Origin: Planctomycetota bacterium
GTDB lineage: Bacteria > Planctomycetota > Phycisphaerae > UBA1845 > UTPLA1
Assembly (NCBI GenBank): GCA_015654675.1
Contig: JAATGM010000012.1
Span: 1-34,024, forward strand
Direction of reading: 5' to 3'
DNA: 34,024 bases
A program made the translations under genes and the position numbers. The notes under the pieces were generated by a model that saw only the letters and a program-made list of their open reading frames with translations, did not search any database and was not told the DNA's origin. Shown here piece by piece: positions 6,498 to 27,196 of the stretch (positions within the stretch are counted from its first letter, which is position 1; the number at the start of each line of letters is the position of its first letter).

Positions 6498-7751
6498 TTA
6501 GTGCCCCGCGGGCTGCGTCGTCGGCGTCTTGGTCATGTTGATGGTGGGGGGCGTCGCCTGGTTCATTGGGACGCGGATCGGCTGTTGCGGCGTGCCGGTC
6601 GGCTGAGCCGTAACCTGCGTTCCGACGGCTTCAACCGGTACCGAAACCTCCGCGAAGGCCTTGTCGCTCGTCTTGAACGTGATCTTGGCCGGAGTTCCGT
6701 TCGGAAGCTCGTAGCCCGCCGGGAACTTCACGACGATGCGGAAGCGCTTGCCGGGAGCGTCCTCGACGAGTTTGGCCGCGATCTTCGAATCACTCATGGC
6801 GACATCCGACACCTTCAGGTCTGTGCCGGCATTGAAGGTGACATAAACAGCGCGCTCGAGCTCAACAGTCAGCGGCTTCGGGATGAGAATCTTGGCGGGC
6901 TGAACCTCAACGCGGGCCGGGACATAAGCGGTCGCGTTCACGGTCAGGTTCGGCATCTTCGCGTTGCCGGTATCGGCCGTGATGTTGGCGACCTGCGATC
7001 CAGTCGGCATCGGAGGAAGCACGGTGACCTTCATCTCGTATTCCTTGCCTTCGGTGATCGGCTTCACCTCGACGCGGAACATCGGATTGCTGCTCTTGAC
7101 GTTCTTGATCGAGATCTTGTCGTCGAGCTTGTTCGTGATCTTGACGATCTGCTCCTTCGGATGGTCGGTGTCGGTGATGGCCCCGAAGTTGACGTAGGCG
7201 GGCTGGACGTCAATCGGCGTCCAAATGGTGCCCTTCAGCCAGAGCACCGTCTCGGGCTGGCCCTGGATGTTGGTCGTCACGCTGATGTTCTTCTGAACCG
7301 CGCCGTTCATCTTCTCGGTTCGCAGCATGACCGGAATCTTGCCGGTCTTTCCGGGCTCGACGCGGCGGTCCCAGTCGCCCGCCACGGTGCAACCGCAGCC
7401 GGGGCGAACAGCACTGACTTCGAGAACCGCGTTGCCGCGATTGGTAAACCAGAAGTCATGCCGAATCGGCTCGCCGGCCATCTGCTTGCCGAAGTCAAAA
7501 CTGGGCGTATCGAAAACCATTTGCGGCCCCTGGCCGGGCTGCGAAGCAGCGGAAATGCCGACAGCCGGCGTTCCCGGAACGGGTGCACCGCCGTGCGGTG
7601 CAGTCGGAACCGGCTGCGGGGTTGTTTGCGCCGGAGCGGCTTGGGCCGGAGCGCCGGGCGGGTCGGCCAGGGCGATGCCAGCGGATGAGAGGGACGAAAC
7701 CAGGGCGAAGATGGCAACCTTGCCCAGCCGGTTCATTGAGGGTCGATACAT
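6498..7751 (-). CDS. DUF1573 domain exported protein
   Basis: Exported 417-residue protein with a signal peptide (residues 1-29, ending IALA-D), a Pro/Ala/Gln-rich linker to about residue 75, then several Ig-like beta-sandwich units of the DUF1573/ASH type. The first unit is canonical: FDFGKQMAGEPIRHDFWFTNRGNAVLEV followed by PGCGCTVA, the family's Cys motif (full run not quoted). Two further units begin near PAYVNFGAI and PAKILIPK. A low-complexity Thr/Pro tail follows (TPTTQPAGH). DUF1573 proteins are thought to be periplasmic or surface scaffolds; no reaction is known. The ATG at 7751 is preceded by GGAG at 9 bases. First gene of the operon with rhodanese and mauE; the Cys-x-Cys motif fits a thiol-related module. 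Confidence 0.88.
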   Translation of the reverse strand: MYRPSMNRLGKVAIFALVSSLSSAGIALADPPGAPAQAAPAQTTPQPVPTAPHGGAPVPGTPAVGISAASQPGQGPQMVFDTPSFDFGKQMAGEPIRHDFWFTNRGNAVLEVSAVRPGCGCTVAGDWDRRVEPGKTGKIPVMLRTEKMNGAVQKNISVTTNIQGQPETVLWLKGTIWTPIDVQPAYVNFGAITDTDHPKEQIVKITNKLDDKISIKNVKSSNPMFRVEVKPITEGKEYEMKVTVLPPMPTGSQVANITADTGNAKMPNLTVNATAYVPARVEVQPAKILIPKPLTVELERAVYVTFNAGTDLKVSDVAMSDSKIAAKLVEDAPGKRFRIVVKFPAGYELPNGTPAKITFKTSDKAFAEVSVPVEAVGTQVTAQPTGTPQQPIRVPMNQATPPTINMTKTPTTQPAGH

Positions 7752-8055
7752 GTCACTCGCTCCAAAGACGTGGTTAAGTTAGACGGTGTTCCGTTCAGCC
7801 CCGGTCGACCGTGACTAGCGGGGTTGGACCTCAGTCCGAACGCGTTATCCTAATAAAGAACAGCCGGGCGGTCACCCGAAGAGGCCCGACTTTGTATCCA
7901 CTTATTTGCGGCATTTTGCGGAGCGCTCGGCACATTTCAAGCGAAGAATTGAAGGTATGGCCATCGCAATTGGGGCAGGTCGGGAAGTCGCCGTCGATCG
8001 GGTCGCCGGCCGCTCTGATTTCGGGGCCGGTGCCAATCGGTTACAGCTATGTTTG
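7752..8055. other. Divergent intergenic region (DUF1573 / sigma factor)
   Basis: About 300 bases between divergent genes. It must hold both promoters, but I find no convincing -35/-10 pair. It contains the 20-base element at 7911-7930 that is also found before the giant lipoprotein gene. The minus strand also has an open frame (7831-8040) encoding a CPNC motif but without a normal start codon. Confidence 0.4.
7911..7930 (+). promoter_or_regulatory. Shared 20-base upstream element, copy 1
   Basis: The sequence matches 18 of 20 bases with 20708-20727, upstream of the giant lipoprotein gene (common core GCATTTTGCGGA, two variable bases, GCTCGG). It could be a promoter or operator used by the adjacent ECF sigma factor; inference only. 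Confidence 0.3.
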
Positions 8056-8760
8056 ATGCATTCAAGCGATTCCGAGGATGATCACGCTTCAAGTGTCGCG
8101 AGCCGTTCCGTCGCGGCATGCGTCGCCGAGGCAATGTCTGGTAACGGGGCGAGTTTCGAAGCCCTACACGAACGTTACTGCCACGGGCTCGCTCGCTTTT
8201 TCATGAAACGGACGATCGGGCGAATCGACCTGGCCGACGAGCTGTCCCAGAAGACATGGGTCCTGGTGTGGCGGGCGCTTCAGGCGGGCCGATACGACCC
8301 TGCCCGGGCGGCAATTTCGACATTCATCTATGCGGTTGGCCAGAACGTCTGGCTGCAGCATCGCCGTTCGGCGGCTTCGGCCGCGCTCGTCAGCGGCGAC
8401 TTCGACGATTTTTCCGGGCTGGTCTCGGCGACGATCGAAGACCCCGCTGGCGAACTCGCCGCGGCCGAGCTGCTGGAGGCGTTACTCGAAGGCATCCGCT
8501 CGAATGAGCATGAAGACGCCCTGACCAGCGCCGAACGCGAAGTGGTGCGCGGACTGCAGGCCGGGCACTCTGAGCGGGGCTTGGCCGATCGGCTTGGCGT
8601 CGCCGCGAGCACCGTTCACACACGCAAGGTTGCGGCATTTGACAAGCTCCGGCGGTTTCTGGCGAAGCGGGGTTTTGCCGGGCCGGATGCGAGCGCGGCG
8701 GGCATGATGAACGAATCACAAGAGGGGGCGGCCTCCGTTCGGAGATTTGGTCGTGAATGA
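8056..8760 (+). CDS. ECF-type RNA polymerase sigma factor
   Basis: Sigma-70 family factor of 234 residues that would direct RNA polymerase to a specific promoter set. Region 2 is seen in FEALHERYCHGLARFF and in LADELSQKTWVLVWRAL, followed by the aromatic stretch FIYAVGQNVWLQHRR. Region 4 is the helix-turn-helix LTSAEREVVRGLQAG...LADRLGVAASTVHTRK. The ATG at 8056 is chosen because it leaves a short acidic leader before region 2; an ATG at 7957 and a TTG at 7906 are also in frame and no start has a clear ribosome site. The last 8 bases overlap the next gene, an anti-sigma factor, so the pair is co-translated, the usual sigma/anti-sigma arrangement. Likely held inactive at the membrane until an outside signal arrives. 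Confidence 0.87.
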   Translation: MHSSDSEDDHASSVASRSVAACVAEAMSGNGASFEALHERYCHGLARFFMKRTIGRIDLADELSQKTWVLVWRALQAGRYDPARAAISTFIYAVGQNVWLQHRRSAASAALVSGDFDDFSGLVSATIEDPAGELAAAELLEALLEGIRSNEHEDALTSAEREVVRGLQAGHSERGLADRLGVAASTVHTRKVAAFDKLRRFLAKRGFAGPDASAAGMMNESQEGAASVRRFGRE

Positions 8761-9376
8761 TGAACTGATGCAGCGCTTGATTCGAATGTCCGCCGAGGCG
8801 GACGCACTCGACCAGGTGGGCGACCGATCGCGTCGCCGCTTGGATGGCTGCGTGGGCATGGCCCAATTGCAATCGCGGGCCGATTCCGCTGACTCGCTTT
8901 CGTCGCTGGAGCAGGATCACATTCGGGCATGCGCGGTTTGCGGCCCGCGTTGGAAGGCGATGCTCGCGTCGCGTCCGGTTCCGGCTCAGCCGACCGGTCC
9001 ATCGCGCTGGTATCGCTATGCAACCGGCCTGACGGCGGCGGCGGCATGCTTTGCGGCGTTGTTCACGATCTCATCGCGACCTTCCCAACCCAATGCCACC
9101 GTATCCGGCCGCGGGCCCATCGCATCGATTGCGACCACTGAAACCCCGGTGACCGCGGCCGCCACGAGTCTGCTGATTTGCATTCCCGGCGACTCCAATT
9201 GCGACGGTGTCGTCGATAGCTCCGATCTGACCGCCCTCGGATTCGCGGTCCATCGTCCGGAAGAATATGCCGACCGTTTTCCCAACTGCGATGCGGTCTG
9301 CTCAAACGACGTCAACGGCGATTCGGTCGTCGATGAGTGCGATCAGGATGATCTGGTTCAGTGCGTGGGCGGCTAA
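8753..9376 (+). CDS. Membrane anti-sigma factor (ZAS type) with external dockerin-like calcium-loop domain
   Basis: A 207-residue protein starting at GTG 8753 (GGAG upstream), overlapping the sigma gene by 8 bases. The cytoplasmic part carries the zinc anti-sigma motif HxxxCxxC (His56, Cys60, Cys63 in HIRACAVC). A single membrane segment follows at about 88-107 (YATGLTAAAACFAALFTI). The outside part, residues 143-207, is a dockerin-like domain with two F-hand calcium loops: Asp147, Asn149, Asp151, Asp155, Asp158, and Asp186, Asn188, Asp190, Asp194, Asp197. Six cysteines lie in this part. ZAS proteins bind and hold ECF sigma factors; dockerin-like modules in planctomycetes usually end secreted proteins. 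Here the module sits where a sensor would, so calcium or a cohesin-like partner may be the signal (inference). Confidence 0.83.
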   Translation: MNDELMQRLIRMSAEADALDQVGDRSRRRLDGCVGMAQLQSRADSADSLSSLEQDHIRACAVCGPRWKAMLASRPVPAQPTGPSRWYRYATGLTAAAACFAALFTISSRPSQPNATVSGRGPIASIATTETPVTAAATSLLICIPGDSNCDGVVDSSDLTALGFAVHRPEEYADRFPNCDAVCSNDVNGDSVVDECDQDDLVQCVGG

Positions 9377-9460: not shown

Positions 9461-9856
9461 TCAGGTCGCTGTCTTGACGTCGATCCGGCGCGGTTGCGCC
9501 GCGGCGACCTTCGGGAGCCGCAGCGTGAGGACGCCGTTGGCGTACTCGGCACTGATGCGACTTGCGTTGATCATTTCTCCAATCTCGAACGTCCGGTGGA
9601 AGTCCCCGACGCCATATTCCTGAAGCAGGAATCTCGCTCCGGGTGCGGCCGTCGGCTGGGCCCGGCCGTGAATCGTCAACGTACCCTGCTCAAATTGGAT
9701 GTCGATGTCTTTCGGCGCGATGCCCGGCATGTCGGCGAATATGGCGAGATGGTCGCCCGCTTCGACAATGTCGACTGCCGGTGCGAAAGTCCCTTCGCCG
9801 CAGCAACTCCCGGCCGCGCACGTCGACTGCTTCTCAATCGTTGCTTGTGCACTCAT
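9461..9856 (-). CDS. Small heat-shock protein (Hsp20/alpha-crystallin)
   Basis: ATP-independent chaperone of 131 residues that holds unfolding proteins. The alpha-crystallin domain runs from about residue 25 to 120: APAVDIVEAGDHLAIFADMPGI, IQFEQGTLTIHGRA, FHRTFEIGEMINASRISAEYANGVLTLRLPK (quoted in parts). The C-terminal I-x-V motif (IDV) that bridges subunits is present. The N-terminal arm is short and Cys-rich (Cys13, Cys18, Cys19), unlike the usual hydrophobic arm, which might allow redox control or metal binding. The ATG at 9856 has a strong ribosome site (GGAGG, 8 bases away). It is 29 bases behind the second hsp20 gene and shares its promoter. Confidence 0.94.
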   Translation of the reverse strand: MSAQATIEKQSTCAAGSCCGEGTFAPAVDIVEAGDHLAIFADMPGIAPKDIDIQFEQGTLTIHGRAQPTAAPGARFLLQEYGVGDFHRTFEIGEMINASRISAEYANGVLTLRLPKVAAAQPRRIDVKTAT

Positions 9857-9885: not shown

Positions 9886-10341
9886 TCATTGATTTCCGGT
9901 TTTCACCTCAATGCGTCGTGGGCGAGCCGCCTCGGCCTTCGGCAGTGTGACATGCAGCACGCCATCCTTGAATGACGCGGCGATCTTCTCGGCGTCCACG
10001 TCAAACGGCAGCCGCAGAACGCGGGCAAACGTGCCGGCGCTCCGCTCGCGGCGATGCCAGGTCGCATCCGTCGCGCTCTCCTGCGATCGCTCGCCCTTGA
10101 TCGTTAGCTCGCGTCCCATGACCGAAAGCTCGATGTTCTCCATTTTGAACCCGGGGAGTTCGGCCTCGACAGCCAGGGCTTCCTCGGTCTCCCAGACATT
10201 GAGGGCGGGGTAGGTCGGCGCCACGTTGAACGCCAGTGGCGTCCAGTTCACGGAGCCATCAACCATGTGGCCAACGAGCCGATCGACTTCATCCCGCAAA
10301 TGACTCAAAGCACTGTTTCCGCTCGCGATTCGTCCAAACAT
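9886..10341 (-). CDS. Small heat-shock protein (Hsp20/alpha-crystallin)
   Basis: A 151-residue small heat-shock chaperone starting with MFGRIASGNSALSHLRDEVD at ATG 10341, chosen over a longer reading because TAGGAGGAAAAAC precedes it. The alpha-crystallin domain begins at about residue 35 (FNVAPTYPALNVWETEEALAVEAELPG, in part) and contains ENIELSVMGRELTIKGER, the glycine-rich turn SAGTFARVLRLPFDVD and FKDGVLHVTLPK. The C-terminal IEV motif is present. First gene of a two-gene sHSP operon. Its promoter resembles a sigma-54 site rather than a heat-shock sigma or CIRCE-controlled one, so induction probably needs an enhancer-binding activator encoded elsewhere (inference). Confidence 0.95.
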   Translation of the reverse strand: MFGRIASGNSALSHLRDEVDRLVGHMVDGSVNWTPLAFNVAPTYPALNVWETEEALAVEAELPGFKMENIELSVMGRELTIKGERSQESATDATWHRRERSAGTFARVLRLPFDVDAEKIAASFKDGVLHVTLPKAEAARPRRIEVKTGNQ

Positions 10342-10427
10342 GTTTTTCCTCCTATGCGTGATCTCGCGCTCGCGACTCAGATCAGCCGCCAGCGCGCCAT
10401 CCCCTGTTTGGTAACGGGCCTCATTTA

Positions 10428-10444
10428 TGCAAAGGGCGTGCCAA
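10428..10444 (-). promoter_or_regulatory. Sigma-54 (RpoN) -24/-12 promoter for the hsp20 operon
   Basis: On the minus strand the sequence reads TTGGCACGCCCTTTGCA: the TGGCACG-N4-TTGCA consensus, with GG and GC exactly 10 bases apart. Transcription would start near 10418, giving a leader of about 77 bases before the ATG at 10341. No CIRCE repeat is seen. Confidence 0.75.
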
Positions 10445-10547
10445 GCGGGTTGAGTGGCGTTTTGGTTCAATCGTCGGCCGTGGTCGGCTGCCTTCTGTCA
10501 GCATGGCAGACAGTCGCGACTGGGTGGCGGCGCTCGGGGGTGGCCGT

Positions 10548-20791: not shown

Positions 20792-23700
20792 ATGGGTAAC
20801 TGGAAAATTTCGGAGCCGCACACACGAGGGCGGCTTTCATTTATTTTGCGCGCGTTTTTGATGCTGGGTCTGGCCGGCTGTGGTACCCCCACGCCTGTTC
20901 CAAACCCGACGCCTAACGCTGCGCCCTTCGTCAATCGCAACGACGCGTTCACCAACGAAGACACGCCGGTGGTGGTAAACGTCCTCGATAACGATTCCGA
21001 CCCGGACGGCCAGATCAATCCGGGCAGCGTCACGATCACCATTCCGCCGGCGCACGGCACGACCCAGATCGACGCCGCCACCGGCCAGATCACCTACAGC
21101 CCGAATGCCAATTTCAACGGCGAAGATATTTTCACTTATCAGGTCTGCGACAACGACGCGACTCCGCTGTGCGGCACCGCGACCGTCAACGTTTTCATCA
21201 CCGCCGTGAACGACGCGCCCGTCGCAGCCAATGACACGCTCGTCACCAACGAAGACACACCAGCCGACGTCGCGGTTCTCGCAAATGATTCCGACGCCGA
21301 CGGGCCGCTATCGGCCACGGGTCTGTCGATCAGCGCGGCGCCCGCGCACGGCACGGCTCAGATCAACCTTGCGACTGGCCAGATCACCTACACACCCGCG
21401 CACAATTACAACGGCCCTGACGCATTCACCTACCAAATCTGCGACAACGGAACACCGCAACTCTGCGCAAGCGCGAGCGTCAATATCACCGTCAATCCTG
21501 TCAACGATCCACCGGTCGCCGTGGCCGACACCGCGACGCTTGATGAAGATTCGCAAGTTGTCATCAACGTGCTGGCGAATGACTCCGACCCCGACAGCCC
21601 CCTTAATCCGGCCAGCGTGACGGTCACCATTGCGCCGCAGCACGGCTCGACCACGATTAACCCGGCCATCGGCGAGATCACCTACATTCCGACAGGGGAC
21701 TTTAACGGGCCTGACAGCTTTACCTATCAGATCTGCGACAATGCGGTTCCGGCGTTGTGCGCTACGGCCGTCGTCAGCATCACCGTTAATCCCGTGAACG
21801 ATCCGCCCAGCGCGGCCCCGGATGCCGCCGACATCACCGAAGATGCGGCCCCCAATACGGTGACGGGCAACGTTCTCGCGAACGACACGGACATCGACAG
21901 CACGCTGACGGTAGCATCGGTCAACGTCACGCCTGCCAATGTCGGCGTCGCGGTAGCCGGCACGTTCGGCAGCGTGGTCATCAACGCCGACGGCAGCTTT
22001 ACTTACACGCTCAACAACGCTCTACCGTCCGTCCAGGCCCTGGCCCCCGGCGATACGGTGCAGGATTCGTTTACATACGCAAACACCGACGGTGCTGCTT
22101 CCGCCTCGTCAACACTCACGATCTCCATTCACGGAGCGAACGACGCGCCCGTCGCGAGCAACGATTCCGCCGACGTCACCGAAGACGCCGCACAGAACAC
22201 CGCCACCGGCAATGTCCTGAGCAACGACACCGACGTCGACAATAATGACACGCGTACCGTTACGCAGGTGAATAACGACGTCGACAACGTCGCCCATCCG
22301 CTGGCGGGAAGCTTCGGCTCATTCACGCTCAACGCCGACGGCACGTTCACCTATACCCTCGACAACGCCAATCCGCAGGTCAACGCCCTCAACGCCGGAG
22401 GCACGCTCACGGATGCGTTCACCTACGTCGTCTCCGACAGCCACGGCGGTTCCGCCACGGCCTCGGTCACCATCACTATTCATGGGCACAACGATGCCCC
22501 GGTCGCTGCGGCCGATGCAAACACGGCCGTCGAAGATGGCGGCCCCGTGAATGGCAATGTTCTGACCAACGACACCGACGTCGACAACCCCACGCTCACC
22601 GTCGCATCGGTCAACGCTGCGCCGGCCAATGTGGGCGTCCCGGTCGCCGGGCTCTATGGACAGGTCACCATCAACGCCAATGGGGCTTACACATACACGC
22701 TGAACAACGCCTTGCCGGCCGTTCAGTCGCTGGGCCTCGGCCAGACGCTCAGCGACGTCTTTAACTACACGGCCTCCGACGGCTCGCTCGCCAGCAATAC
22801 GGCAATGCTCACAATCACGATCAACGGCGCGAACGACGCACCGGTCGCGACAGCGGACGGTCCGTTCGCCATCACCAACGGCGCGACCCTTAACATCAGC
22901 GCGCCGGGCCTGCTTGCGAACGATTCCGACATCGACACCGGCGACACGCTGACAGCCATCCTCGACACGCCACCGGCGCTCGCCGCCAGCTTTACCGTTA
23001 ACCCGAACGGCTCGTTCACCTACACCCACAATAACTCCGGTGCGGGCAACGACAGCTTCTCCTATCACGCGCGCGATTCGCACAACGCGGTCAGCAACAC
23101 CATCGTCGTTAGCATCACCATCCAGACCGGCCCGGCCGCCAATGATGACCAGTACACCACCCTCGCGAACACCCCGCTCAACATCAACGCCGCGGCCGGA
23201 GTCATCCAGGGCAACTCGCCCGGCGCAGTCGCCGACACCGGCAGCCCGACGCCCACGCTGACTCACTACGGCCCGGTCGGTGGCCCGCTCGCGACCACGC
23301 CCGGCAACCCGTTCGTCACGGCCGGTGGCGCGACGCTCAACATGAGCGCCAACGGCGCGTTCACCTACGCGCCGGCGGCGAACTTCTCCGGCGTGGATCA
23401 TTTTGATTACGAGATCACCAACCCGGCCGGTGTCGATACGGCCACCGTCACAATCACGGTCAACAAGCTCCCGGTGGCAAACGAAGATAACCCCGGCGCG
23501 ACTTACACCATAATCCTCGGCAACACGCTGACGCGCCCGGCCGGCGACCTCTTCGCCAATCATGGCGCCGGCGCGGATGATCTTGGTTTCCCCGCCGCAA
23601 CGATCTCCAGCTTTGGCCCCACGACCGGCACGGAAACGCTGGCCGGTCAACCCGGTTCAACTTCCGGCAGCGCCGGTCTCACGGTGAACGCGAACGGCAG

Positions 23701-26700
23701 CTTCGTCTATACGCCAACCGCTACCGGCGTTCACACTTTTGTGTACACGCTTGCGAACACTGTCGGCTCCGACACCGCCGTGGTCACGATCACGGTTAAC
23801 AAGCCCCCGACGGCGAATGACGACAACCCCGGCGCGAGCTACACGCTCCTGCTGGGCGGCAGTCTGTCACGCCCGGCCGGCGACCTGTTCGCCGACCATG
23901 GCGCGGGCGCTGACGATCTCGGCTTCCCGGTTGCCACGATCGCGAGCTTTGGTCCCGCCACCGGTTCCGAAACACCAGCCGGCCAGGCCGGATCGACGAC
24001 CGGTGGCACCGGCCTCGTGGTCAACGCCAACGGCAGCTTCAACTACACGCCGACGACCACCGGCATCCACACATTCGTCTATAGACTGTCGAACTCAGTC
24101 GGCTCCGACACCGCGACGGTAACCATCACCGTCAACAAGATTCCGATTGCCAATGACGACAATCCCGGTGCGGCCTACACCATCCAGTTCGGTAACACGC
24201 TGACCCGCCCGGCCGCTGACTTGTTCGCCAATCACGGCGCCGGGGCCGACGATCTCGGATTCCCAGTCGCAACCATCACCAGCTTCGGGCCGTCCACCGG
24301 CGCGGAAACGCCCGCCGGCCAGCCCGGCTCCACAACCGGCGGTTCAGGGCTGACGGTAAATGCGAACGGCAGCTTCACCTACACGCCCACGACTCCCGGC
24401 GTTCACACGTTCGTTTACACGTTGGCCAATGCCGTCGGCTCCGACACGGCCGTGGTCACCATCAGTTCCACGCAAGCCCCGGCCGCAGTCGACGATCCGC
24501 CCGGCGGAATTCCCGCGAATAGCACGCCGCCCTCCGGCGCAAACCCTAATCCGTATCACACGGCCATCAACACCGTGCTCAACATCCCGGTCGGTGCGAA
24601 CGGCCTGCTGGCCAACGACACCATCGGCAGCCCGGTCGCGTCGATCGTCAGTTTTGGCCCGTCCACCGGACTCGAAACTACGGTCGCTTCGAACACCGAC
24701 GGCGCAACCGCCAGCGGCGGAACACTCCGTGTCCGCGCGGACGGCAGCTTCACCTACACGCCGGCGTCCAATTTCACCGGCCTCGACCAGTTCAAGTATT
24801 CGCTGAGCAATGGCGTCAACCCGGCCACCGTCGCGACGGTTTCGCTCGCGGTCGGGTTCCGTCTCGCCGTCGCCGACGATACCCACGCCGTGACCGGCAA
24901 TATTGCCATCGACACGTCGCTGGCCCCCGCATTCAGCGTGACCAGCAACGACTCGGGCGACCAGCTCGCTATCGCGCTCGTCGGCGCAACGCACGGAACC
25001 GCCGTCCTCAACCCGAACGGGACGTTTACCTTCGATCCGGATGCCGGCTACACCGGCCCCGCCACGATTACATATTCAGCAACCAACGGGTACGGCTCGT
25101 CGCAGGCCACCGTCAACCTCACCGTCTCCAATCTCGTCTGGTTTGTGGATAACTCGCTGCTCGCCACAGGCGACGGGCGGCGCACAAACCCGTTCAACAG
25201 TCTCGCTGACGCCGCCGCGGCGCCCGTCGGAACCGTCTTCGTCTATCGCCACGCCGGCAGCTATACCGCCGGCTACACGCTCCGCGCTTCCGAGCGACTC
25301 ATCGGCCAGGGCGTCGCCTTCGATGCCACCGCGCTCGGCTTCACCCCCGCGCCGCACAGCGCCAATCTTCCGACGCAATCGATCGCTCCGACGCTCACGA
25401 GCACCGTGACCCTTGCCAACAATTCGGCAGTTCGCGGCCTCAATGTCACGACGACCGGCGCAACCGCGCTGGCGGGTTCGAACGCCATCGGCCTCGATGT
25501 CGCCTCCGTTCTGCTGAACGCAACCACGGCATCCGCGCTATCGTTGACCAATTGCTCCGGCAGCGTCGCGATCTTCAGCACCACCGTCACCAATTCGCCG
25601 ACCGCCGGCGTCGCGCTGGCCAACAATTCGGCCACGATCAGTGTGGGCGCGCTGAACGTCACCAATACCAGCTCGAACCAGCCCGGTCTGGTCGCCACTG
25701 ACAGTTCCGGCACGATCACAGTTTCGTCCGGAGCGCTCAGCACCGGCACGGCCACCGCCATTAACATCGACGGCCCGCCCGCCCGGACGCCGCTCGCCAT
25801 TTCGCTCACCAGCATCACGTCGATCGGCGGCAGCGCCCCCGGCCTGCTGCTCACCGATATTTCAGGCACGTTCTCCATCATCGGCGCTGCAGGCGCCAAT
25901 TCGGGCGGAACGATTCAAAACAAGACCACCGACGGAGTCCGCCTGCTCAACGTGAGCGGCGTGACCCTGACGAAGTTGCTCGTTTCAAACAGCACCGACA
26001 ACAACGTCGACGCGACCAACGCCTCCGGCCTCCGTCTGAGCGGCGTCACGCTCGATCAGTCCGGCAACGACAACTTCCGTGGAAACTCCATGACCAACCT
26101 CGTGCTCTCTGACAGTTGCCTCGTGGATCGCTCCGGAACCCTGCCGGGCATTCACGGAATCAACATCGAAGGGCTGTTCGGCTCGGGCAACTCGATCACG
26201 GCCACGACCATCCGCCGCTCGTCGGCGATTCAGCTTCGCGTCCATAGTGTCATCGCTTCGGCCGCGATTCCGGCGGCGCCGCAGGACATTCTGACGCTCT
26301 CCGGTTGCACGTTCGACCAACACACGGGCATGTTCGCTCAGGACAGCGTCCTGTTCAGCGTTGACTCGGGCGCGAATGCCCGGCTTGTCACCGATGCTTC
26401 GGTCGGCCCCGTGAACATCGCCGACGGCATCGCGGGCATTCACTGCACCGGCACGACCGGCGCACGCCTGGATGCGCGCGTCTCGAATATCAACCGCACC
26501 GGCGGAACGGGAGCGGGCGTGACACTCACCCCGACTGGCTCATCCGGCGCCGGCCCGACCACGATCACGTTCAACATCTCAAACAACACCATCACCAACG
26601 CCGCTGGCGGTCCGCTCAATTTCTTCGCCTCGGCCGGTGGTGCAATTGTGGGCATCGCAGACAACAACACCCTGACTGGTTCACCGAGCAACAGCGCCAT

Positions 26701-27196
26701 CAATCTCGTCGCCGAGGGCAGCGGCCCCGCCAGCTCGGCCATCGCGACGGCTACCATCTCGAACAACAACATCACCGGCGTACAGATCGGTTCGGGCATC
26801 AACTGCCAGGCCCGTACCGGCGGCGCGGCCAATCTCAACATCCTGAACAATCACATCAACATCAACGACGCCCAGAACCAGGAAGGCATCGCCGTCCAGT
26901 CCGGTTCGACCAACGCAGGCGAAGGCAACAGCACCGTTTGCCTCAACCTGGCCGGCAATCGCTCAACGGTGGGTCCGGCCTCCGGCCAGGAGGACTATCG
27001 CCTCACCGTCCGCGGCCCGAGCGTCTTCCGCCTCCAGGGTTTCACCGGCAATGGCGCAAACTTCGCCGAAGTGAGCAGTTGGCTCGTCAATGTGAAGGAC
27101 AACAAGCGATTTGACGGCTCAGCCCCAACCTCCCAAATCAGTATCTTCACCGCCGGCGTCTATACCCAGGCCCCGGTCAACTGTTCCGTCCCTTAG
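20792..27196 (+). CDS. Giant surface lipoprotein: cadherin/VCBS-like repeats plus beta-helix domain
   Basis: A 2134-residue surface protein, probably an adhesin. A hydrophobic signal segment ends in a lipobox (LGLAGC, about residue 29), then a Pro/Thr linker. Three cadherin-like (tandem-95 type) units follow, each opening near NDAPVA or NDPP and holding VLANDSD and YNGPDAFTYQICD-like blocks. Three VCBS-type units come next (TEDAA.N..TGNVL.NDTD), then further Ig-like units, then three tandem 112-residue repeats (23459-24466) and two more beta units. From about residue 1450 (WFVDNSLLATGDGRRTNPFNSL) the rest reads as a right-handed parallel beta-helix rich in Asn and Thr. Calcium binding at the Asp-rich loops is likely. 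ATG 20792 lacks a close ribosome site; a perfect AGGAGG lies 30 bases upstream. No C-terminal sorting signal seen. Confidence 0.88.
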   Translation: MGNWKISEPHTRGRLSFILRAFLMLGLAGCGTPTPVPNPTPNAAPFVNRNDAFTNEDTPVVVNVLDNDSDPDGQINPGSVTITIPPAHGTTQIDAATGQITYSPNANFNGEDIFTYQVCDNDATPLCGTATVNVFITAVNDAPVAANDTLVTNEDTPADVAVLANDSDADGPLSATGLSISAAPAHGTAQINLATGQITYTPAHNYNGPDAFTYQICDNGTPQLCASASVNITVNPVNDPPVAVADTATLDEDSQVVINVLANDSDPDSPLNPASVTVTIAPQHGSTTINPAIGEITYIPTGDFNGPDSFTYQICDNAVPALCATAVVSITVNPVNDPPSAAPDAADITEDAAPNTVTGNVLANDTDIDSTLTVASVNVTPANVGVAVAGTFGSVVINADGSFTYTLNNALPSVQALAPGDTVQDSFTYANTDGAASASSTLTISIHGANDAPVASNDSADVTEDAAQNTATGNVLSNDTDVDNNDTRTVTQVNNDVDNVAHPLAGSFGSFTLNADGTFTYTLDNANPQVNALNAGGTLTDAFTYVVSDSHGGSATASVTITIHGHNDAPVAAADANTAVEDGGPVNGNVLTNDTDVDNPTLTVASVNAAPANVGVPVAGLYGQVTINANGAYTYTLNNALPAVQSLGLGQTLSDVFNYTASDGSLASNTAMLTITINGANDAPVATADGPFAITNGATLNISAPGLLANDSDIDTGDTLTAILDTPPALAASFTVNPNGSFTYTHNNSGAGNDSFSYHARDSHNAVSNTIVVSITIQTGPAANDDQYTTLANTPLNINAAAGVIQGNSPGAVADTGSPTPTLTHYGPVGGPLATTPGNPFVTAGGATLNMSANGAFTYAPAANFSGVDHFDYEITNPAGVDTATVTITVNKLPVANEDNPGATYTIILGNTLTRPAGDLFANHGAGADDLGFPAATISSFGPTTGTETLAGQPGSTSGSAGLTVNANGSFVYTPTATGVHTFVYTLANTVGSDTAVVTITVNKPPTANDDNPGASYTLLLGGSLSRPAGDLFADHGAGADDLGFPVATIASFGPATGSETPAGQAGSTTGGTGLVVNANGSFNYTPTTTGIHTFVYRLSNSVGSDTATVTITVNKIPIANDDNPGAAYTIQFGNTLTRPAADLFANHGAGADDLGFPVATITSFGPSTGAETPAGQPGSTTGGSGLTVNANGSFTYTPTTPGVHTFVYTLANAVGSDTAVVTISSTQAPAAVDDPPGGIPANSTPPSGANPNPYHTAINTVLNIPVGANGLLANDTIGSPVASIVSFGPSTGLETTVASNTDGATASGGTLRVRADGSFTYTPASNFTGLDQFKYSLSNGVNPATVATVSLAVGFRLAVADDTHAVTGNIAIDTSLAPAFSVTSNDSGDQLAIALVGATHGTAVLNPNGTFTFDPDAGYTGPATITYSATNGYGSSQATVNLTVSNLVWFVDNSLLATGDGRRTNPFNSLADAAAAPVGTVFVYRHAGSYTAGYTLRASERLIGQGVAFDATALGFTPAPHSANLPTQSIAPTLTSTVTLANNSAVRGLNVTTTGATALAGSNAIGLDVASVLLNATTASALSLTNCSGSVAIFSTTVTNSPTAGVALANNSATISVGALNVTNTSSNQPGLVATDSSGTITVSSGALSTGTATAINIDGPPARTPLAISLTSITSIGGSAPGLLLTDISGTFSIIGAAGANSGGTIQNKTTDGVRLLNVSGVTLTKLLVSNSTDNNVDATNASGLRLSGVTLDQSGNDNFRGNSMTNLVLSDSCLVDRSGTLPGIHGINIEGLFGSGNSITATTIRRSSAIQLRVHSVIASAAIPAAPQDILTLSGCTFDQHTGMFAQDSVLFSVDSGANARLVTDASVGPVNIADGIAGIHCTGTTGARLDARVSNINRTGGTGAGVTLTPTGSSGAGPTTITFNISNNTITNAAGGPLNFFASAGGAIVGIADNNTLTGSPSNSAINLVAEGSGPASSAIATATISNNNITGVQIGSGINCQARTGGAANLNILNNHININDAQNQEGIAVQSGSTNAGEGNSTVCLNLAGNRSTVGPASGQEDYRLTVRGPSVFRLQGFTGNGANFAEVSSWLVNVKDNKRFDGSAPTSQISIFTAGVYTQAPVNCSVP
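23459..24466 (+). repeat. Three tandem 336-bp coding repeats in the giant lipoprotein
   Basis: Copies begin at 23459, 23795 and 24131, each exactly 336 bases (112 residues), opening with VNK.P.AN.DNPGA and containing RPA.DLFA.HGAGADDLGFP and FVY.L.N.VGSDTA. Differences are largely synonymous, so the protein is conserved while the DNA has drifted. Confidence 0.9.

Follow-up and report, generated by a model that had tools for sequence, protein, structure and literature searches.

RsrA is a class-I anti-sigma domain protein. Anti-sigma factors of this zinc type are assigned by an Hx3Cx2C signature, as set out in the available part of PMC7406223, and the locus described here resembles the class-I ASDI/ZAS proteins ChrR and RsiW treated there in having that signature together with an upstream cysteine, an adjacent ECF sigma gene, and a membrane-bound form. 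Unlike ChrR and RsiW, the partner protein studied here has a predicted extra N-terminal helix before its zinc core, is too divergent to be matched by the Pfam zf-HC2 model or by a PDB sequence search, and carries a dockerin-like outer domain. The clostridial SigI/RsgI systems are similar in another respect: they consist of a membrane anti-sigma factor with exchangeable outer sensors, which in that case are CBM3, CBM42, CBM35, and PA14-like modules (PMC3413522, available text). Our partner protein differs from them in having no RsgI family match, and the outer modules of RsgI are described as binding polysaccharides, with no dockerin named in the part of PMC3413522 at hand.

With type I dockerins (PF00404) and the dockerin-like C-terminal modules of planctomycetes, the outer module shares two F-hand loops, its length, and a weak profile match, and at least 64 related modules are found in its own genome; it is unlike type I dockerins in scoring below the Pfam cut-off, in its extra cysteines, in its place on a predicted membrane signalling protein, and in that no cohesin was found in three of the four genomes concerned. 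The nearest idea that we found is the Caulobacter CaBP-SigV circuit (PMC13171946), in which an ECF sigma factor is coupled to calcium sensing by a periplasmic EF-hand protein; the EF-hand protein there is separate and periplasmic, and its membrane link to the sigma factor is left open, whereas here the calcium-type loops lie inside a putative anti-sigma factor. In the open-licence literature on dockerins and anti-sigma factors, to the extent that its text was accessible, we found no anti-sigma factor with a dockerin-type sensor. By their titles, most of the papers concern gut or reactor communities, the breakdown of biomass, or producers of cellulosomes.

The sigma factor and its probable membrane-bound partner

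The window, by which we mean the whole 34,024-nucleotide stretch of planctomycete DNA that was analysed, is contig C59 of a 4.93 Mb genome in 62 contigs (G000); its relevant features are collected in Table 1. The first gene of the pair encodes a protein with a clear sigma region 2 (Pfam Sigma70_r2, 28.2 bits against a cut-off of 24) and a region 4 that stays below threshold (Sigma70_r4, 17.5 bits, cut-off 24.1; GerE, 21.8 bits, cut-off 23.5), and the NCBIfam sigma70-ECF model scored 35.0 bits, below its cut-off of 42.9. A profile made from nine relatives matched chain 2q1z_A (RpoE, ECF SigE) at 1.2e-15 with both regions covered. Judged by these profiles, the product is a divergent ECF-type sigma factor. 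Two CARF models also matched it in a PADLOC scan (1.7e-5 and 0.0014); we read these as matches to its helix-turn-helix. The same scan gave no model match for the partner protein.

Table 1. Features of the sigma/anti-sigma locus, with positions in the window; residues are numbered from the GTG start at 8753.
Feature	Positions	Strand	Basis
Divergent DUF1573 gene, candidate sigma target	6498..7751	-	Conserved neighbourhood
Candidate shared upstream element, GCGCTCGGCACATTT	7923..7937	+	Lead only
ECF-type sigma factor gene, 234 aa	8056..8760	+	Sigma70_r2 above cut-off; RpoE-chain profile match
Anti-sigma gene, 207 aa from likely GTG start	8753..9376	+	Homologue alignment
Predicted N-terminal helix, residues 1-24, MNDELMQRLIRMSAEADALDQ...	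8753..8824	+	Common to partners without zinc site
Zinc-type anti-sigma core: C33, H56, C60, C63	8849..8941	+	Invariant in 6/6; weak profile match
Single hydrophobic segment, residues 90-108, taken as transmembrane	9020..9076	+	Hydropathy
Dockerin-like ectodomain, residues 141-207, six cysteines	9173..9373	+	Profile matches, loop alignment
F-hand calcium loop 1, DSNCDGVVDSSD, residues 147-158	9191..9226	+	Complete loop
F-hand calcium loop 2, DVNGDSVVDECD, residues 186-197	9308..9343	+	Complete loop

Seven loci with relatives of the sigma factor come from Phycisphaerales, Phycisphaerae, Planctomycetaceae, and Planctomycetia MAGs. Within the order, with 27 candidates scored per genome, the family was found in 19 of 114 genomes, as a single copy in each (E <= 1e-25), and 15 of these are close (E <= 1e-60); a draw of 392 genomes from the phylum added distant sigma genes in G433 and G171. 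A tree of 21 sigma proteins was poorly resolved, with 3 of its 18 inner branches well supported.

The open reading frame of the partner was listed as 8747-9376 with a TTG start; the GTG at 8753 is the more likely start because the homologues align there, and it gives an 8-base overlap with the sigma gene that includes the sigma stop codon. All residue numbers refer to this 207-residue protein except those of the AlphaFold model, which was made from the 209-residue form. The zinc signature is HIRACAVC, that is, H56xxxC60xxC63, with C33 as the upstream cysteine, and these four residues are invariant in all six partners that have the pattern, two of which carry another ectodomain. Pfam zf-HC2 gave no match to the partner, and a PDB sequence search returned no anti-sigma protein for it. 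An hhalign comparison with the zf-HC2 proteins of the same genome placed the HxxxCxxC motifs in register, a weak match (26.6% probability, E 7e-4). An AlphaFold run on the window protein and two homologues (A5) was poor (mean pLDDT 41.7) and was left out of the fold search. Class-I anti-sigma domains fold as three helices, with the signature spread over helices 2 and 3; the low-confidence helices of the model lie at residues 38-46, 53-61, and 65-74 (209-residue numbering; block means of pLDDT 46-63). The best 19-residue Kyte-Doolittle mean of the window protein is 1.51, which is borderline. The other 12 partners measured span 1.41-2.20, and for the further dockerin-type proteins described below, three in number, the values are 1.64-1.97. 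Pfam includes an RsgI_N model, and neither the Pfam nor the NCBIfam scan of the partner protein brought up an RsgI family.

These results bear on the possibility that the second protein is an unrelated membrane protein that merely follows the sigma gene and is no anti-sigma factor, a reading that the silence of zf-HC2 and the unlinked arrangement in one genome (G019) would suit. The two reading frames overlap in the window, however, the zinc pattern is invariant wherever it is present, and partners with the same helix follow the sigma gene in G056, G047, G070, and G062 and in eight further genomes, and we hold this reading to be decidedly unlikely. The sigma/anti-sigma pair proposed in the first-pass annotation is supported by the sigma profile matches, the overlap, and the adjacency kept in G056 and G047, and its single membrane segment agrees with the one borderline hydrophobic stretch. 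Its "textbook" HxxxCxxC motif is present as a signature and is invariant in the six proteins, but the adjective was too strong because zf-HC2 has no match. We conclude that the partner is a predicted membrane-bound variant of the class-I anti-sigma factors in which a dockerin-like outer domain occupies the place of the sensor, and that this arrangement is real and conserved.

The dockerin-like module

Both F-hand loops of the outer module are complete, and when the ectodomain was shuffled 100,000 times, two complete loops arose in only 2 cases. In the four anti-sigma proteins of this type the loops are complete in 8 of 8 cases, and four of the module cysteines are invariant. The Dockerin_1 model (Pfam PF00404) scored 14.4 bits on the window partner, below its gathering score of 22.9, and 12.2 and 11.9 bits at two of the homologous loci (L004 and L003, respectively), with no Dockerin_1 hit among the matches listed for L002. 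Because the window score is below the Pfam cut-off, we call the module dockerin-like only. A profile of the four proteins matched the solved dockerin 5m2o at E 7.3e-4, a match that covers only the first loop and is partly to a tag.

Full-length homologues with both loops and the four module cysteines are encoded in three other genomes of the order (G056, G019, and G047), at 34-38% identity. When 114 genomes of the order were searched, with 27 candidates scored per genome, the four dockerin-type proteins stood at 280-330 bits versus at most 75.2 for the other matches listed, and that 75.2-bit runner-up covers the module alone. Since three other genomes keep both the loops and the cysteines, the predicted fusion of anti-sigma core and module is not a product of chance. 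In the 392-genome phylum draw, which included the window's own genome and scored seven candidates in each, a dockerin-type match was found in that genome only; the genomes were sampled evenly from a larger group, G056, G019, and G047 were not seen among them, and fusions whose zinc core or module has diverged further would escape the search. The homologous sigma gene lies directly upstream of the dockerin-type partner in G056 and G047, close and without overlap. In G019 the lone sigma gene of the family and the anti-sigma homologue (loci L101 and L102) are on different contigs, with no sigma gene of the family in the 10 kb around the homologue and no such partner seen in the 1.5 kb after the sigma gene.

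A true dockerin would bind a cohesin-bearing surface protein, and the switch would then read a cellulosome-like or "planctosome"-like assembly. A cohesin/dockerin "planctosome" has been proposed for freshwater Phycisphaerae (PMC6461901, available part), and the window's genome has two cohesin (PF00963) matches, one of them over the cut-off. Against this, a cohesin search at E <= 0.01 found none in G056, G019, or G047, genomes that are 93-99% complete and encode the same anti-sigma type, and Dockerin_1 remains below its cut-off. A fifth genome, G003, likewise gave no cohesin match, so that four of the five genomes checked lack a detectable cohesin. With Dockerin_1 sub-threshold and no cohesin found in three of the four genomes that encode the type, we regard a classical cohesin-dockerin switch as unlikely for these predicted anti-sigma factors and as the most improbable of the readings.

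Several first-pass statements about the module can be taken together. Its two F-hand loops and six cysteines were counted correctly, and the architecture search that it had suggested, for ZAS-plus-dockerin proteins, turned up the type in three further members of the order. The designation as dockerin-like holds for the two loops in the sensor position and falls short in the Dockerin_1 score, and the idea of a surface cohesin partner is weakened by the cohesin counts. The remark that planctomycetes attach such loops to secreted proteins fits the setting, since such modules are common in the window's genome, as detailed below.

Differing outer domains and the module pool

The outer domain of this single sigma/anti-sigma lineage differs between genomes, because homologous sigma genes precede partners with other outer domains. 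The partner downstream of the sigma gene in ten further genomes shares the N-terminal helix and the membrane segment and carries another outer domain; two of these proteins keep the zinc pattern. Among the 15 close systems, three combine the zinc core with an adjacent dockerin-like module (window, G056, and G047), and one has no adjacent partner (G019, with its dockerin-type homologue elsewhere); two have the zinc core with a different cysteine-containing outer domain (G070 and G062), eight have the helix, the membrane segment, and that same cysteine-containing outer domain without the zinc core (G022, whose partner is broken by a run of N, G029, G003, G035, G038, G065, G071, and G044), and in one the partner is unclear at a contig end (G066). 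The four distant sigma genes of G078, G086, G106, and G007 also have partners, which combine a helix and a membrane segment with an outer domain of yet another kind. The N-terminal part is common to the 13 partners aligned, so that the predicted helix is the most widely kept element; only some partners have the zinc core, and their outer domains differ. Anti-sigma groups that include members both with and without the zinc site have been described (PMC7406223, available text).

A second cysteine-containing outer domain, with ..CxCLxWxxHxW.. in most members, was seen at L022, L023, L025, L026, L027, L052, L053, L054, L055, and L073. Pfam found no family over its cut-off in the four proteins of this type that were scanned. 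This domain was modelled from A6; the model was beta-rich with a mean pLDDT of 65.3, and we left the domain unnamed because Foldseek found nothing like the model in the PDB at E <= 0.001. A likeness to DUF4384 was considered and is unsupported: in the seven scanned proteins whose outer domain is of a different type from the window's, no Pfam family exceeded its cut-off.

Modules related to the one on the anti-sigma factor are abundant. The window's genome has at least 92 Dockerin_1 matches (150 of 233 candidates scored), beside which stands the one cohesin-domain ORF over the Pfam cut-off (L121, on G000:C58), and the profile of the anti-sigma module gave at least 65 matches there, its own copy included (150 of 223 candidates scored), and at least 121, 150, and 150 matches in the three relatives (150 candidates scored in each). 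Among the 29 other modules compared from the window's genome, 26 end within five residues of the C-terminus, and several of eight module loci inspected by eye begin with an apparent export signal. Seven other ORFs of the genome contain zf-HC2 (eight matches), and no dockerin-like module was seen in these seven, two of which (L093 and L097) are truncated where their locus ends.

This abundance lends itself to a second interpretation, in which anti-sigma control is real, the signal is sensed through redox at the zinc core or at the membrane segment, and the dockerin-like module is a passive tag that anchors, sorts, or stabilises the protein, a role it may also have on the many other proteins that bear it. 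The numbers of matches and the C-terminal placement of the module would both suit a tag, and the first zinc ligand is a cysteine, a feature that in RsrA can permit cytoplasmic redox sensing. What speaks against a tag is that related systems hold a different domain at the same position, as is expected of an exchangeable sensor, and that the module copies on the anti-sigma proteins share a feature absent from the pool of the window's genome. We compared them with a pool of the 54 best-scoring module loci, 27 from the window's genome and 27 from the other three, after removing the duplicate rows L140 and L147. Two complete F-hand loops are present in 40 of the 54. A cysteine-bearing link of six residues joins the module halves in all four anti-sigma proteins and in none of the 27 own-genome pool modules, but it does occur in 8 of the 27 from the other three genomes; two own-genome modules have a cysteine in a shorter link. 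The link was located by a regular expression, and the nine rows without one were then read by eye. Combined with a cysteine four residues before loop 1, it is found by reading in 4 of 4 anti-sigma modules versus 1 of 54 in the pool (L169). In a tree of 58 module rows, built on few columns, the four anti-sigma modules were clustered (2 changes, a number as low in 1 of 500 shuffles) and did not form one clade.

The distribution of the link and its cysteines speaks against a recent capture of the window's module from the pool of its own genome and speaks for common descent of the putative anti-sigma modules, on which the trees lack resolution. The window's copy thus resembles a retained special version rather than a tag of recent own-genome origin. 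On balance we find the passive-tag interpretation doubtful, if the most serious of the alternatives.

A proposed switch, its candidate targets, and its meaning

The reading that we favor, and consider probable, is that the protein is a class-I membrane anti-sigma factor in which a dockerin-like, probably disulfide-braced calcium domain gates release of the sigma factor. The N-terminal helix and the cytoplasmic zinc core would hold the ECF sigma factor encoded by the overlapping gene inactive, and one predicted membrane segment would join this core to the extracytoplasmic module. Calcium is the probable ligand of the two F-hand loops in this module, and its conserved cysteines are probably paired in disulfides. 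Loss of calcium, a change in disulfide state, or a partner other than a classical cohesin would alter the module, and a conformational change or proteolysis might then free the sigma factor. The freed sigma factor would probably act first on the operon that encodes it and, in genomes that have one alongside, on the divergent DUF1573 gene.

The DUF1573 gene divergently adjoins the sigma gene in six genomes, namely the window's and G022, G029, G003, G066, and G062 (L104, L105, L106, L109, and L114). Upstream sequence is present for 13 of the close systems, so that the adjacency holds in six of 13; the sigma genes of G065 and G071 stand at the very start of their contigs. Because each of the 13 genomes searched has only two to seven DUF1573 matches, chance seems, by these counts, a poor explanation for the adjacency. 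Among the four dockerin-type systems, the adjacency is found in the window only. G022 and G003 share an identical 15-mer ahead of the sigma gene (L104 4550-4564 and L106 5684-5698), which matches the window at 12 of 15 positions. An 11-mer with one mismatch in four of the six upstream regions was equalled in 7 of 60 shuffles, and a 12-mer in three of the six in 15 of 60, both weak; the window contains a single occurrence of a pattern fitted to its own site, and 17 of 100 shuffles contain one or more. We therefore carry the upstream element as a candidate and a lead only. Elsewhere in the window, two HSP20 genes on the minus strand (9461-9856 and 9886-10470) converge on the anti-sigma gene, and a plus-strand ORF at 20792-27196 (2134 aa) has many repeated motifs that, by eye, resemble those of large surface proteins.

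Beyond these readings, we considered that the anti-sigma factor may be a cargo mimic, which would compete for, or share, a receptor, a sorting step, or a calcium- or disulfide-dependent folding step with the apparently exported module proteins, so that occupancy would set sigma activity. We regard this as unlikely; if it is true, the switch would be a cohesin-free feedback gauge of export and surface assembly. If the calcium reading of the gated switch is true, calcium-type loops would be built into the anti-sigma factor itself. The same type of outer module also ends dozens of other, apparently exported proteins, which suggests calcium, disulfide state, or the machinery that deals with module proteins as possible cues for gene expression here. 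Dockerin-like modules are abundant in these planctomycetes and cohesin was undetected in four of five genomes, and a regulator that carries such a module offers a handle on the role of the modules: deleting or mutating the module in the anti-sigma factor should give a transcriptional readout.
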